Origin: a virus | IMG/VR virus record: IMGVR_UViG_3300047556_000004 | Coordinates: 1-21,724 of that record | Direction: 5' to 3' (one strand) | Length of the DNA stretch: 21,724 nt | Shown here: positions 2,563-18,180 of the stretch, one piece after another | How the letters are laid out: each line of letters starts with the position of its first letter | Numbering within the stretch: the first letter of the stretch is position 1 | Notes under the pieces: model-generated | Seen by the model: the letters and a program-made list of their open reading frames with translations, nothing else | Told to the model about the DNA's origin: nothing | The model's database searches: none | Position numbers and translations under genes: made by a program

Positions 2563-3144
2563 TCACTTAAGCTCTATGTACTCCGTAAAGGTAACTTTGG
2601 TATGAGGGTTCTTGCTGACGACCTCCTGCCTTATCGCCTTTGTGCCGTACTTGATGAACCAAAACTTTTTCGGAACTCTATGGACCACCTGGACTATCGT
2701 GTCTCGTGATTCAATCTTACCCGAAAACGTGCTTCTATCTATGCATCCATCCAACGTTAGCCACTTATCCACGTACTTAATGCACTTAACGGTATCGGTT
2801 CTATCCCGAAATACCGTATCTCGAACCGTGGTTGTTATGGTGTAAGTTGTGGTCGTACCGGATTGGCTAGCCGATTGGACCTTTCGAAGCTTGATGTTTA
2901 GCGATTCAATTGTTTTCGCTAGCTCCTTATTGCCATACTCAAGCTCGCTTTTGGTTAGAACAAGCTTTTCCACGCTTGCAGCCTTCAACGAATCTTGTGT
3001 TTGATAGAAGCTTACCTGCCCTAATAGAGCATGTTGGTTATTCGCCAACCGATCTACCTCCTTCTTTTGCGAGCTGTACGCTATGCCTAGATAGGTTACA
3101 GCTACAATGAGCAAGACTATCAGCCCTGCTACTAGCTTTTTCAT
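2563..3144 (-). CDS. Spanin-like membrane-anchored coiled-coil protein
   Basis: A 193-residue protein with one N-terminal membrane segment (about residues 3-22, MKKLVAGLIVLLIVAVTYLG), then a long polar helix likely to form a coiled coil (about 25-95), and a threonine-rich beta-type C-terminal part (about 97-193) with two cysteines, C121 and C134. It lacks a lipobox. The shape and the place, last in the lysis cassette and joined to the holin-like gene by an ATGA overlap (3141-3144), suggest an Rz-like inner-membrane spanin working in the last step of lysis. Similar proteins are common in Bacteroides phages (I recall the family as DUF6549, not checked). The folded C-terminal part is larger than in usual i-spanins, so another envelope role is possible. 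Confidence 0.65.
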   Translation of the reverse strand: MKKLVAGLIVLLIVAVTYLGIAYSSQKKEVDRLANNQHALLGQVSFYQTQDSLKAASVEKLVLTKSELEYGNKELAKTIESLNIKLRKVQSASQSGTTTTYTITTTVRDTVFRDRTDTVKCIKYVDKWLTLDGCIDRSTFSGKIESRDTIVQVVHRVPKKFWFIKYGTKAIRQEVVSKNPHTKVTFTEYIELK

Positions 3145-3371
3145 ACGTCTTGTTGATTTTTGTTGAACTTCTCAATAACTGTTAGAATGGACGAACCGCC
3201 CACCAATGAGCCAAAAATGTAGTACAGGCTTTCGCTTGCGGTATGCCCGAAAGCCGAAAAGAATGCTAGCACTATAAGCACTAGTAATGAAACGAGCGCA
3301 ATAAATCGCTTGTGCGATACCTCACTACGAGAGGACATCATCTCTTTAAGCCACCTTTTCATACTTTGCAA
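3141..3371 (-). CDS. Holin-like small membrane protein
   Basis: A 76-residue protein with a basic N-terminus (MQSMKRWLKEMMSSRSEVSHKR) and two membrane segments, about residues 23-41 (FIALVSLLVLIVLAFFSAF) and 48-66 (SLYYIFGSLVGGSSILTVI), ending in a polar tail. Two helices, small size and a position directly after the endolysin fit a class II holin, which would permeabilise the inner membrane and release or activate the muramidase. The gene overlaps the end of the endolysin gene by 26 bases and the next gene by four. The start could also be the second methionine at 3362. Function is inferred from topology and context; the four-helix protein at 4396-4818 is a rival candidate for the holin. Confidence 0.6.
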   Translation of the reverse strand: MQSMKRWLKEMMSSRSEVSHKRFIALVSLLVLIVLAFFSAFGHTASESLYYIFGSLVGGSSILTVIEKFNKNQQDV

Positions 3372-3912
3372 ATGCTTTTGATAGTGAAATATCGTAAGGA
3401 TCGCGCCCTATTCGTTGGGCTAGCTCCTTATACTTAGCCCCATTGTAAATAGAAGCTACCATGTGCCAATCACGAACGTTGATAGCCTTAAGCAGTCGCT
3501 TATCGGTTTCGATAAACTTCACAATTTGGTAGATTTGCCTATCTAATCCCTTTTTGGCATCATCCCACATTGCACCTACAGAAGCATATCCTAGTCTTTC
3601 CCAATGGTAGCCCATAACCTGGCCAAGACCAATAGAGGTGCTTTCCATAGCTGAATTTGGGTCAATAGCAAAAGCATCATTAAAGGCTTTCCATTCAGCT
3701 GCTTGCACATCAACCTTGTTAAGCGACCACAAGCCCGAAGGTGCGTATGGTTCACGCTTTCTAAAGTGAGCTGGCTCAAACTGAATAATTATCTTACCAG
3801 TAACAGGGTTGAACCCCTTACCGCCTGTTTCCACCTCGATAAACGCCAAAAGAGCAGCAGGGTTTATGCTACCATGCTGCTGTTTTACCAAATCTGATAT
3901 TAGCTTATCCAT
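3346..3912 (-). CDS. Endolysin, N-acetylmuramidase (DUF3380-type)
   Basis: A 188-residue protein covering one catalytic domain of the phage N-acetylmuramidase family. The start of the domain reads LLAFIEVETGGKGF, where E28 of E-T-G-G matches the conserved 'VESGG' glutamate of the family, followed by IIIQFEPAHFRKR (about 41-53), the equivalent of the conserved 'iLFExHxF' block. The SIGLGQVMGYHW segment (about 93-104) is typical of lysozyme-like folds. It has no signal peptide, so it would need a holin to reach the wall, where it cleaves glycan strands. A perfect Shine-Dalgarno site (AAGGAGG, 6 bases before ATG) supports the start at 3912. The gene overlaps its upstream neighbour by 8 bases and the holin-like gene by 26. 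Confidence 0.88.
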   Translation of the reverse strand: MDKLISDLVKQQHGSINPAALLAFIEVETGGKGFNPVTGKIIIQFEPAHFRKREPYAPSGLWSLNKVDVQAAEWKAFNDAFAIDPNSAMESTSIGLGQVMGYHWERLGYASVGAMWDDAKKGLDRQIYQIVKFIETDKRLLKAINVRDWHMVASIYNGAKYKELAQRIGRDPYDISLSKAFAKYEKVA

Positions 3913-4294
3913 GCATTGCCTCCTTTTTTACGCTCAGCACGTCGAGCTTAAGCTCAATAGGGCATTGCTCCCTATCGCATTGAACCCGACATCCCACCGC
4001 TCGCTTGTAGATGTTAAGGTCACGCTCAATACCAATCTTTTCGGCATCGGAAACACGAAGCGAAGTCTTGAGCGTGTCAATCTCCTTTCGCATATCGTTA
4101 ACCTCCTTCCGCATCTTTTCCTTATCCTCCTGCAGCACCTCGATAGTGTTGGTTAAGGCTTCGATGTCAATAGACTTGGTTTCAGCTTGCTTCCTCCGCT
4201 TATTTTCTTTGAAGTAGAGAAGAGAAACGATAATAGCACTTGTGCCACCAAGAGCACCTATTACCGCGATTAGTGTTGTTGCTATTCCTGTCAT
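3905..4294 (-). CDS. Membrane-anchored coiled-coil protein with C-terminal cysteine cluster
   Basis: A 129-residue protein: one membrane segment (about residues 5-27), a basic stop (KENKRRK), a charged coiled coil (about 40-95) and a short end with C102-x3-C106-x4-C111 (VGCRVQCDREQCPIELKL). Short cysteine-ended coiled-coil membrane proteins like this are frequent in lysis regions of Bacteroides phages, but I know of no tested function. The three cysteines could bind a metal or form disulfides. The start is fixed by a strong Shine-Dalgarno site (AAGGAGGT, 5 bases before the ATG). Its first 95 bases overlap the preceding gene in another frame. It may be an i-spanin, an antiholin or a scaffold for the endolysin; I cannot decide. 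Confidence 0.7.
   Translation of the reverse strand: MTGIATTLIAVIGALGGTSAIIVSLLYFKENKRRKQAETKSIDIEALTNTIEVLQEDKEKMRKEVNDMRKEIDTLKTSLRVSDAEKIGIERDLNIYKRAVGCRVQCDREQCPIELKLDVLSVKKEAMHG
3919..3925 (-). promoter_or_regulatory. Strong Shine-Dalgarno site of the endolysin gene
   Basis: AAGGAGG, 6 bases before the ATG at 3912. Most other genes of the window have no such site. Confidence 0.85.
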
Positions 4295-4448
4295 GTGTTA
4301 CCTCCTTTTCAATTTCTACGAATTGAGTTAGGGCTAGAATGATCTTGTCGTACTGTTCAGCTGTTAGGTTATCGCATAGGCCGTTTTCGATGCCCTTAAT
4401 CAGCATCTTTAAGGTTTTCACAAGCTTTTTTTTGGTTAAAGCATCCAT
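4200..4448 (-). CDS. Small helical protein of unknown function, overlapping both neighbours
   Basis: An 82-residue frame. The first 52 residues (MDALTKKKLVKTLKMLIKGI, then ENGLCDNLTAEQYDKIILALTQFVEIEKEVTH) look like a normal, helical, basic-to-acidic protein. The last 30 (from DRNSNNTN) lie entirely over the membrane segment of the next gene in another frame and have an odd composition (WWHKCYY), as expected for an out-of-frame tail. It overlaps the upstream gene by 53 bases and the downstream one by 95. It lacks a strong ribosome binding site. It may be a real small lysis-cassette protein whose stop was lost, extending it over its neighbour. No function recognised. Confidence 0.55.
   Translation of the reverse strand: MDALTKKKLVKTLKMLIKGIENGLCDNLTAEQYDKIILALTQFVEIEKEVTHDRNSNNTNRGNRCSWWHKCYYRFSSLLQRK
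4300..4307 (-). promoter_or_regulatory. Strong Shine-Dalgarno site of the coiled-coil membrane protein gene
   Basis: AAGGAGGT, 5 bases before the ATG at 4294, eight bases complementary to the usual 16S rRNA end. It lies inside the upstream overlapping gene. Confidence 0.85.
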
Positions 4449-4818
4449 ACTTCTGATAGATTAACCATGAAACAAAAAGCACGACCACAGTAGTCGCACC
4501 GATTAGGTAGGCGTAGTTGCCTACATTAACACCGTAATTAGTTAATGCTTCTAGGAGAAGTCCGAAGGACATGTTTATAATCAAAAGCCTGTGCCAAAAG
4601 CAAAATCTTAGCTTTGATGAGAGCCAGTATAGGATAGCATTGTATAGAAAGCTTTGTCCTATAATGGGGTAAACGTACTTTGCGATATCCTCACGAACGC
4701 CCACTATGTAAAGCGACATAGCAAGCAGAATGTACAGGTTTATTGCTACAGGTAGCAGCTTAACAACCTGAATTGCTAGCATATCGGTTACACGTTTTAG
4801 GCGTTTCTTAGTACTCAT
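4396..4818 (-). CDS. Four-helix phage membrane protein (alternative holin)
   Basis: A 140-residue hydrophobic protein with about four membrane segments: residues 17-39 (VVKLLPVAINLYILLAMSLYI), 46-66 (KYVYPIIGQSFLYNAILYWL), 76-94 (HRLLIINMSFGLLLEALTN) and 99-120 (GNYAYLIGATTVVVLFVSWL). A basic N-terminus (MSTKKRLKR) and a polar tail follow the inside-positive rule. The segment WLSSKLRFCFWHRLLIIN resembles a block shared by membrane proteins of Bacteroides phages, from memory only. Its place near the head of the lysis cassette makes a holin or holin regulator likely. Its ATG overlaps the stop of the 38-residue gene (ATGA) and has a good Shine-Dalgarno site; the end overlaps the next gene by 53 bases across an A8 run. 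Confidence 0.68.
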   Translation of the reverse strand: MSTKKRLKRVTDMLAIQVVKLLPVAINLYILLAMSLYIVGVREDIAKYVYPIIGQSFLYNAILYWLSSKLRFCFWHRLLIINMSFGLLLEALTNYGVNVGNYAYLIGATTVVVLFVSWLIYQKYGCFNQKKACENLKDAD

Positions 4819-4931
4819 TGCTTGCCTCCTGTACCTCCACCAGTGCGAGGAGGCTCTTCGCCTGTTTCTTCTCCATCTGCCGTACCTTCACCCTCTGGTG
4901 CGGTTGGCAATTCTTCGTCTAGTTCTGCCAT
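4815..4931 (-). CDS. Tiny acidic, Gly/Pro-rich protein at the head of the lysis cassette
   Basis: A 38-residue protein, MAELDEELPTAPEGEGTADG followed by EETGEEPPRTGGGTGGKQ. It is strongly acidic with a glycine-rich end, and has no membrane segment. Four lines of support: it starts with ATG right after the intergenic region, its stop overlaps the next start as ATGA (translational coupling), its composition is protein-like and disordered, and an operator-like palindrome lies 38 bases upstream. Part of the glycine-rich end is also the Shine-Dalgarno site of the next gene (GGAGG-type sequences twice), so this end may be kept for RNA rather than protein reasons. No function recognised. Confidence 0.65.
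   Translation of the reverse strand: MAELDEELPTAPEGEGTADGEETGEEPPRTGGGTGGKQ
4825..4830 (-). promoter_or_regulatory. Strong Shine-Dalgarno site of the four-helix membrane protein gene
   Basis: AGGAGG, 6 bases before the ATG at 4818, inside the 38-residue gene. A second GGAGG lies further upstream in the same gene. Confidence 0.75.
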
Positions 4932-5183: not shown

Positions 5184-5753
5184 ATGAAAAAAATTGCATT
5201 TTTGTTAGTTGTTCTAGGCATTATAACAATGTCCTGCCAAAAGGATGAGGTTAAGCCCGACTACCAACCTCACAAAACGTACATCAACGGTGTGGCAGTT
5301 GCCAACCATTCAGCTACCAAGTCACAGGTTCTACGTGATTTGAAGTACATCGTTAAGAATGCCAACGTTATTCTATCCTATAACGATAGCATTAACCCTA
5401 ACAATCAGATAATCGGTTTTCTGTTTGATAACAACAGAGATACGGTTAACCTTAGATTTGTGTACGATGAGTTTGCCATACTTCAAAGCGATGGAAAGAT
5501 TAATAATGCACTTCTAGCCAATAGGGATATGGTTTATGTCGTTAGAACTTATAGAGGTGAGTTTGAGCTTCCTGGTATTGACACCATAGCCTACACCCCT
5601 AATCGTATCTTAAGACGTGCCGAAACGTTGGTAAGAGCAGCTGTTAAGGCGAACGATTGGGCCACATGCTACGCGGTTATGGACACTACATTTAAATTCT
5701 ACCCAATAACAGGCGAACAGTGGCGAGAATTGAAGCGAAAAGGCATAGAGTAG
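5184..5753 (+). CDS. Phage-encoded lipoprotein (probable lysogenic-conversion gene)
   Basis: A 189-residue protein with a lipoprotein signal peptide: MKKIAFLLVVLGIITMSCQK, lipobox T-M-S-C with the lipidated cysteine C18, then QKDE. The acidic residues after the cysteine do not exclude surface export in Bacteroidota, where such signals are charged. The mature part (about 19-189) is a mixed, globular protein without a domain I recognise. The gene is alone on the + strand between the tail and lysis genes, which run the other way. It has its own host-type promoter, no Shine-Dalgarno site and its own terminator, the hallmarks of a 'moron' expressed in the prophage. Likely roles are superinfection exclusion or change of the host surface; an outer-membrane spanin partner is another possibility. 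Function is inference. Confidence 0.8.
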   Translation: MKKIAFLLVVLGIITMSCQKDEVKPDYQPHKTYINGVAVANHSATKSQVLRDLKYIVKNANVILSYNDSINPNNQIIGFLFDNNRDTVNLRFVYDEFAILQSDGKINNALLANRDMVYVVRTYRGEFELPGIDTIAYTPNRILRRAETLVRAAVKANDWATCYAVMDTTFKFYPITGEQWRELKRKGIE

Positions 5754-17433: not shown

Positions 17434-18180
17434 TTAGGCTCCTGCCTGTGTTACCGTAACAACAGTGCTTACGCCATCTGCAGTAAGTGTAATATCTGCG
17501 GTTCTAGCCTCCGAGTTGGTGTTAGCTGCTACCTTAACGGTTGCCACCTTACCCGAGCGTGTAACGGTTAGCCACTCTACGCTGCTGTCAACACCTGCAT
17601 AGGTTAGGTTGCCAGTTGAGCTTGCGGTAATAGTCTTACCTGTAGCATCAGCAGCAGCCGTGAAGCTTAGCGATGTTGGAGATACAGAAAGTGCCCCAAG
17701 TACATAAGAATATATAGCCTTACCAGGTGAGCTTACAGCCATAGGGGTAACGGTTACATCAATAAGGGTAATACCCTTTTTTGACATATCAGCGTTGATG
17801 GTAGCCTCAATATCTCCATTAGGGATATCAAATACAAGTCCTTGTTCTGGTATTACCCTAATAGCTTTTCTTAAGACTGTTTCGGTTCCATCAAAGCCCC
17901 ACTTACCGTTGGTTACAGTACCACCAACAAGGTCTGCCATTAATTCAGGCGTTGGGTCCATTAATGAAAATGTCAGCACAGGTACTTTCTTCTGCTTTAA
18001 CCTTTCCTCTGGCGAAGATTTTCCCTCTTCGTAGTGCTCCGTTACCTCTGCTTTGTCCTGTGTGAGCTTACAGGTGTCCTTATAGGTTTTACCTATCTTA
18101 CTCATTGTTTCGGGCATGGTACCAGCAGTGCTAGCCACGCCTACTTTTATCTCACTTAGTCCTAGAGAAATTGTTCCCAT
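17434..18180 (-). CDS. Major tail tube protein with C-terminal BACON domain
   Basis: A 248-residue protein. Residues about 1-160 fit a siphovirus tail tube subunit in size and place (after head completion genes, before chaperones). Residues 164-247 (LSVSPTSLSFTAAADATGKT to TADGVSTVVTVTQAG) are a BACON domain: the W203 after a short acidic turn, the N-rich RT turn (NTNSEARTADITL) and the final VTVTQAG strand are diagnostic. BACON domains are nearly confined to Bacteroidetes and their phages (including crAss-like phages) and are thought to bind glycans or mucin. On a tube protein this would give hundreds of copies along the tail, like the Ig-like ends of other tube proteins. A terminator-like hairpin follows the gene. 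Confidence 0.85.
   Translation of the reverse strand: MGTISLGLSEIKVGVASTAGTMPETMSKIGKTYKDTCKLTQDKAEVTEHYEEGKSSPEERLKQKKVPVLTFSLMDPTPELMADLVGGTVTNGKWGFDGTETVLRKAIRVIPEQGLVFDIPNGDIEATINADMSKKGITLIDVTVTPMAVSSPGKAIYSYVLGALSVSPTSLSFTAAADATGKTITASSTGNLTYAGVDSSVEWLTVTRSGKVATVKVAANTNSEARTADITLTADGVSTVVTVTQAGA

Follow-up and report, generated by a model that had tools for sequence, protein, structure and literature searches.

Bacteroidota are the textbook exception in which the anti-Shine-Dalgarno sequence is kept and not used. The question raised by the present locus was why strong Shine-Dalgarno (SD) sites stand before lysis genes in DNA of a phage of this phylum, and what role they may have there. 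The DNA analysed, referred to as the window, was the whole stretch of 21,724 nucleotides (positions 1 to 21,724 of IMG/VR virus record IMGVR_UViG_3300047556_000004).

Lysis cassette of the window and its SD sites

All genes of the lysis cassette were located on the minus strand; the genes were called, and the holins identified, computationally. The endolysin was an N-acetylmuramidase of 188 aa (PF11860, E=3.3e-35) at 3346..3912, and its relatives in other Bacteroidota shared 65-69% identity, with a Prolixibacteraceae genome match at 69%. The gene overlapping its start encoded a holin/spanin-like protein of 129 aa (3905..4294) with an N-terminal TM and a coiled coil, which gave weak PHROG matches of hol-like and Rz-like type (E 8e-6, 9e-4). 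Further upstream were an 82-aa ORF (4200..4448), a 140-aa hydrophobic protein (4396..4818) that had no match in Pfam and PHROG and is a candidate holin by sequence only, and a 38-aa ORF of uncertain reality (4815..4931), which overlapped the start of the 140-aa gene by ATGA. On the other side of the endolysin were a 73-aa hydrophobic, holin-like protein (3141..3362) and a DUF6549 protein (PF20186) in a spanin-like position (2563..3144).

The DUF6549 gene stood 3' of the endolysin in many Bacteroidales phages, and the protein matched 101 phage records whose names gave hosts nearly all in the Bacteroidales. The capsid of the window matched that of Bacteroides phage BS-TP2. From the DUF6549, major capsid and endolysin matches, the host of the window was inferred to be in or near the Bacteroidales.

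The original prediction had placed AAGGAGG or AGGAGG before the starts at 3912, 4294 and 4818 and had described nearly all other genes as lacking such a site, with the tail-tip gene as a weak exception. This description was confirmed: AAGGAGG preceded 3912 and 4294 and AGGAGG preceded 4818, all on the minus strand with a motif-ATG spacing of 6 nt, neither motif was found before any other start in the window, head and tail genes included, and the tail-tip gene (start 11011) had AGGAG only. The proposed tie to the lysis cassette held in part, as all three SD starts lay in the cassette, whereas its four other genes, starting at 4931 (38 aa), 4448 (82 aa), 3362 (73 aa) and 3144 (DUF6549), had no SD.

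The extended SD of the endolysin (3919..3925, minus strand; context AAAAAAGGAGGCAATGC-ATG) was located in K-K-E-A codons of the 129-aa gene, the stop of which ends 8 nt inside the endolysin gene. It had 8 contiguous bp to the 16S tail and a calculated duplex energy with ACCUCCUU of -10.9 kcal/mol. The site of the start at 4294, AAGGAGG(T) (4301..4307, minus strand), was formed by K-E-V codons of the 82-aa ORF (9 bp, -12.2 kcal/mol), and the AGGAGG of the start at 4818 (4825..4830, minus strand) by Gly-Gly-Lys codons of the 38-aa ORF (6 bp, -10.6 kcal/mol); the latter site was paired in the predicted local RNA fold. All three sites were located within the 3' codons of an overlapping upstream ORF. 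Among the fetched loci, no homologues of the 140-, 82- and 38-aa genes and no clear one of the 129-aa gene were found.

Three other features of the window were recorded. Within 4093-4107 (minus strand), inside the 129-aa gene, a further AAGGAGG in K-E-V codons was followed at a distance of 8 nt by an in-frame Met, which could be an internal start for a soluble coiled-coil version or a product of chance. A divergent lipoprotein-like gene (MKKIAFLLVVLGIITMSCQ...; 5184-5753, plus strand) adjoined the cassette; in loci L084, L085 and L194, homologues encoded on the strand opposite the lysis genes lay immediately upstream of them, and one was present in L190. The gene possibly encodes a lysis-associated lipoprotein. 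In the tail module, the protein at 17434-18180 (minus strand) matched phrog_6767 over residues 4-160 and carried an extra C-terminal stretch that was Ig/BACON-like by eye.

SD sites at endolysin starts of related phages

The comparison covered related phage and prophage loci of Bacteroidota. At those with PF11860 endolysins, strong SDs were rare yet recurrent beside the endolysin. When sequences were clustered at 70% identity, GGAGG was found at -16..-5 in 19 of 83 endolysin clusters and in 62 of 1589 clusters of other genes (OR 7.3, p=3e-9). With the strict motif AGGAGG, and with the window and high-GC loci left out, the counts were 15/70 for endolysins and 28/1387 for other genes (OR 13, p=2e-10). 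These two tests superseded an earlier exploratory enrichment, which was weaker (OR 3.75). Permutation within loci gave 3.9 expected endolysin SDs against 16 observed (P<5e-6), and AGGAGG preceded 0.25% of internal phage ATGs.

Annotated phage isolates were then fetched blind to SD, the SD criterion and the prediction for lysis genes having been fixed beforehand. Five of the first eight Bacteroidota isolates (PD491P1, BS-TP2, Porphyromonas 005b, PV4-TP1 and AS73P1) carried an extended SD at the endolysin start, and in Porphyromonas 005b it was the sole SD of the phage. Of 17 loci with M15_3 endolysins of the Bacteroides clade, 16 had the SD at the endolysin and hardly any other SD nearby; several GH108 endolysins were also positive. 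In total, seven non-homologous endolysin families were SD-bearing (PF11860, GH24, Amidase_2, M15_3, GH108, Amidase_3 and one unassigned), which indicates that the SD was gained repeatedly.

The SD was centred on one host order, being found in 7/20 lineages of the Bacteroidales vs 0/25 elsewhere (p=0.002; Flavobacteriales, Sphingobacteriales, Chitinophagales and Cytophagales, with lineages assigned by us from record titles). No endolysin SD was found in the Flavobacteriales phages examined. Most endolysins of the wider sample were SD-less, including those of B124-14, B40-8, Versailles and ARB14; thus, the SD is not required for lysis. A scan of Amidase_2 endolysins, which was kept out of the headline statistic, gave new positives that, apart from a single GGAGG case, all fell in the gut clade already known; the narrow range was thereby confirmed, and claims beyond gut Bacteroidales were lowered. 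A DUF6549 scan of viral contigs yielded three loci and one further endolysin SD (L193). The prophages obtained by a PF05105 holin search of 345 Bacteroidota genomes were too few for use, and a PF11860 search of 393 genomes of the order returned mostly longer proteins that are probably cellular. Locus L095, from a contig assigned to a Legionellaceae MAG, combined a Bacteroidota-type PF11860 endolysin with many SD genes; it is either mis-binned or from a phage of another host, and it was dropped from the later tests.

The enrichment expected for lysis genes as a whole was thus found at the endolysin start, where holin and endolysin join, and did not extend to the whole cassette. Holin and spanin starts usually had no SD, so a general SD rule for lysis cassettes was rejected. 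Exceptions outside the endolysin were the holin of L084/L085, membrane genes following the endolysin in L092, L094 and L101, and the genes of the window starting at 4294 and 4818. SD sites were not equally common in structural genes, which, like other genes, rarely carried one. One structural gene with an extended SD (AAAGGAGGACTAATAT-ATG) was the major head protein gene of BS-TP2 (L198:40361), the capsid of which is the closest isolate homologue of that of the window.

Holin-endolysin junction and codon choice

The SD was associated with overlap between the endolysin and its upstream gene. Where such overlap existed, 13/35 endolysins carried an SD vs 25/377 overlapping background genes; endolysins with no upstream overlap had one in about 4/36 clusters. 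The holin-endolysin overlap of the relatives was mostly ATGA, and most SDs sat in the charged tail of the holin (KKEDKK*, KDKEEKK*, KEKEVRK*). C1_85S2P and AS73P1 had a common holin and different endolysins, while C1_85S2P and PD491P1 had a common endolysin (amidase) and different holins; AAGGAGG was present in all of them.

Codon choice at the SD position was compared across the whole class of endolysin starts, and the result bears on this class rather than on the 4294 or 4818 site by itself. Lys-Glu at this position was written AAG-GAG in 18/23 cases vs 16-22% in background genes (p=1.6e-8), and in 14/19 after the M15 clade was collapsed (p=2.4e-6). Elsewhere in the same holin tails, AAG made up 39% and GAG 32%. 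This bias argues that the RNA motif itself is selected, and we regard the site at endolysin starts as very probably a selected SD.

Three rival explanations were weighed against this reading. A few AGGAGG matches might arise by chance in GA-rich coding sequence, and the motif was indeed common in the window (23 matches vs 8.3 expected from shuffles). However, among 438 ATG triplets scanned on the minus strand, only four had AGGAGG at -15..-5, and three of these were the gene starts at 3912, 4294 and 4818, the fourth being an internal Met of the 129-aa gene; the pattern was also replicated in the isolates and exceeded the within-locus permutation. Chance is therefore refuted for endolysin starts in general and has only a very slight probability as an overall account; it may still explain the 4818 and 4294 sites if these are considered singly, as they have no relatives for comparison. 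Equally remote is the proposal that the lysis modules came from SD-using hosts, for instance with Firmicutes phages, and brought their SDs as relics. The mosaic nature of phage genomes and the mobility of lysis modules favour this; however, the nearest genome relatives found for the window endolysin were other Bacteroidota sequences with no SD, the SD survived the exchange of either neighbour, and synonymous selection acted on it, so import from SD-using phages was unsupported. The SD might also be an accident of codons if holins need a charged Lys/Glu tail, as it was mostly in frame with a K-K-E-[D/E/G]-K-K tail and such tails recur. Against this stands the codon test, in which the synonymous bias was strong only at the SD position and on which the simple form of this explanation was rejected. 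In addition, the SD of L309 was kept in another frame with Glu-Arg-Arg codons (AGG AGG), that of BS-TP3 was located about 70 nt past the annotated holin stop, and a Polaribacter (Flavobacteriales) holin homologue, although it ended in charged residues (DDKKVYEK) and had the same ATGA overlap, lacked the SD. A by-product of the holin tail is thus improbable, if less so than chance or import.

Two loci differed at the junction. In L225, a gene that was J-domain-like by eye (L225:4557-4913) occupied the endolysin slot between the holin and DUF6549 and had AAGGAGG overlapping the holin end; the SD may therefore be tied to the junction and not to what the endolysin does. In BF766P1, a phage of B. 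fragilis, the holin was separated from an SD-less endolysin by a terminator-like hairpin (GGGAGGTTTAACGCCTCCC-TTTAAA; L333:1465-1508), part of the sequence of which was also present in B124-14. The endolysin of BF766P1 may be under a different control.

Host ribosome and possible roles of the SD

The anti-SD was intact in Bacteroidales genomes. Among the 10 genomes searched for ACCTCCTTT, four had it at the end of the 16S gene, and the other six assemblies gave no match. bS21 was encoded in all 14 genomes checked, and its Tyr54, which stacks on the anti-SD, was kept in the Bacteroidales genomes. The host group, as inferred for the window, thus has bS21 of the sequestering type, in line with the original prediction. 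Strong SDs were present at 3 of 275 starts in chromosomal samples of a Bacteroidales-like host genome, which is chance level (0.9% of internal ATGs).

The rpsU (bS21) start was SD-less in six genomes (five Bacteroidales or related and one unassigned Bacteroidetes), while five Sphingobacteriales genomes had AAAGGAGG or AGAGGAGG before rpsU. In most Bacteroidales genomes examined, rpsR (bS18) carried AAAGGAGG, with an energy of -10.9 kcal/mol with the 8-nt anti-SD, equal to that of the endolysin SD. This host pattern agrees with published surveys (PMC9976891; PMC8710568). Because it has an rpsR-type core with about -11 kcal/mol in an SD-poor genome, the endolysin SD was placed in the rpsR class. 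The rpsU SD is reported to pair over 9-13 bp at -14 to -21 kcal/mol (PMC9976891), beyond the endolysin site (8 bp, -10.9) and, in energy, the 4294 site (9 bp, -12.2), the published values being for a 13-nt tail and those of the window for an 8-nt anti-SD.

Taken together, an SD of rpsR strength, selected at endolysin starts, that raises endolysin translation at the holin junction was the best explanation overall, and we lean slightly towards it. Its most likely role, for which the sequence evidence leaves the case about evenly balanced, would be SD-assisted initiation or reinitiation of the endolysin. A ribosome finishing the holin, or a fresh 30S subunit, would be held at the overlapping ATG by 8-9 bp of presumed pairing with the 16S tail, normally covered by bS21, bS18 and bS6. 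If the two genes are coupled in this way, the endolysin yield would follow the holin yield. Two published findings speak against this reading: a strong SD gives no gain with wild-type F. johnsoniae ribosomes (PMC9976891), and Bacteroidetes chromosomes, taken as a group, were reported to make no use of SDs in reinitiation (PMC6728339).

The original prediction had instead suggested preferential translation of lysis genes by ribosomes lacking bS21, with timing or stress control of lysis as the outcome. In this model, the SD would route endolysin mRNA to such ribosomes, and lysis would occur late or under stress. In F. johnsoniae, the strong SD AGGAGGU gives no translation gain on wild-type ribosomes, but on mutation or depletion of bS21 the GFP of an AGGAGGU reporter rises about 1.4 to >2-fold and rpsU 3-4-fold, with SD-less genes unaffected (PMC9976891). 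The bS21 with Tyr54 in the Bacteroidales also favours such routing. However, Bacteroidales rpsU is SD-less and rpsR has the SD instead, so that the Flavobacterium feedback is not visible there; the endolysin SD is of rpsR strength, below the pairing of rpsU; and phages of the Flavobacteriales, the hosts with the proven mechanism, showed no endolysin SD. Routing to ribosomes lacking bS21 is therefore unlikely. An SD gated by loss of bS21 or bS18 is doubtful, though a little less so, and bS18 is possibly at least as good a candidate for the gate as bS21. Still more speculative is a timing of lysis by the 30S platform, the state of which would be sensed by gut Bacteroidales phages. Complete ribosomes would then leave the endolysin SD silent, and it would be read once the occupancy of bS18, bS21 or bS6 drops late in infection; if true, endolysin translation would be a clock set by ribosome composition.

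Several known systems resemble the favoured SD-assisted start at the junction. The rpsR SD of the Bacteroidales has the same AAAGGAGG core and energy in genomes otherwise lacking SDs and is thought to be autoregulated (PMC8710568); however, it belongs to a cellular ribosomal protein gene, whereas the phage SDs stand at lysis genes and mostly inside an overlapping upstream CDS. The extended rpsU SD of the Flavobacteriales, autoregulated by ribosomes lacking bS21 (PMC9976891), is likewise a strong SD of a kind seldom seen in its phylum, which is poor in SDs and has a sequestered anti-SD, but its pairing is longer than that of the endolysin and the gene is monocistronic in F. johnsoniae. An ATGA overlap with an SD in the upstream 3' end is usual for termination-reinitiation pairs outside the Bacteroidetes, and the conclusion drawn from a survey of 720 genomes was that reinitiation in Bacteroidetes involves no SD (PMC6728339); the junctions of gut Bacteroidales phages are an exception to this conclusion. 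The bS21 encoded by some phages, thought to give their mRNAs an advantage late in Bacteroidetes infection, also ties phage expression to the bS21/anti-SD region (PMC9723584), but the feature studied here is a cis-acting mRNA site, and no bS21 gene was found in the 21.7-kb IMG/VR fragment. In full-text literature on SD with Bacteroides or Bacteroidetes phage, lysis, endolysin and crAss (subscription papers and preprints lay outside the scope), no account of the pattern was found.

Since SDs were selected repeatedly, at codon level and at one position, in unrelated phages, there must be some natural condition in which SDs are read by Bacteroidales ribosomes, and lysis is pointed to as that condition. 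The junctions are ready-made natural reporters that offer a testable handle on the translation of lysis genes, and they have a bearing on the design of expression tools for gut Bacteroides. The AAAGGAGG core was also seen apart from the junctions: unrelated small phage genes at L197:41887, L203:12823, L203:28707 and L196:23072 had a similar upstream context, AAAGGAGG(G)CAAA-, and are possibly mobile genes carrying their own SD.
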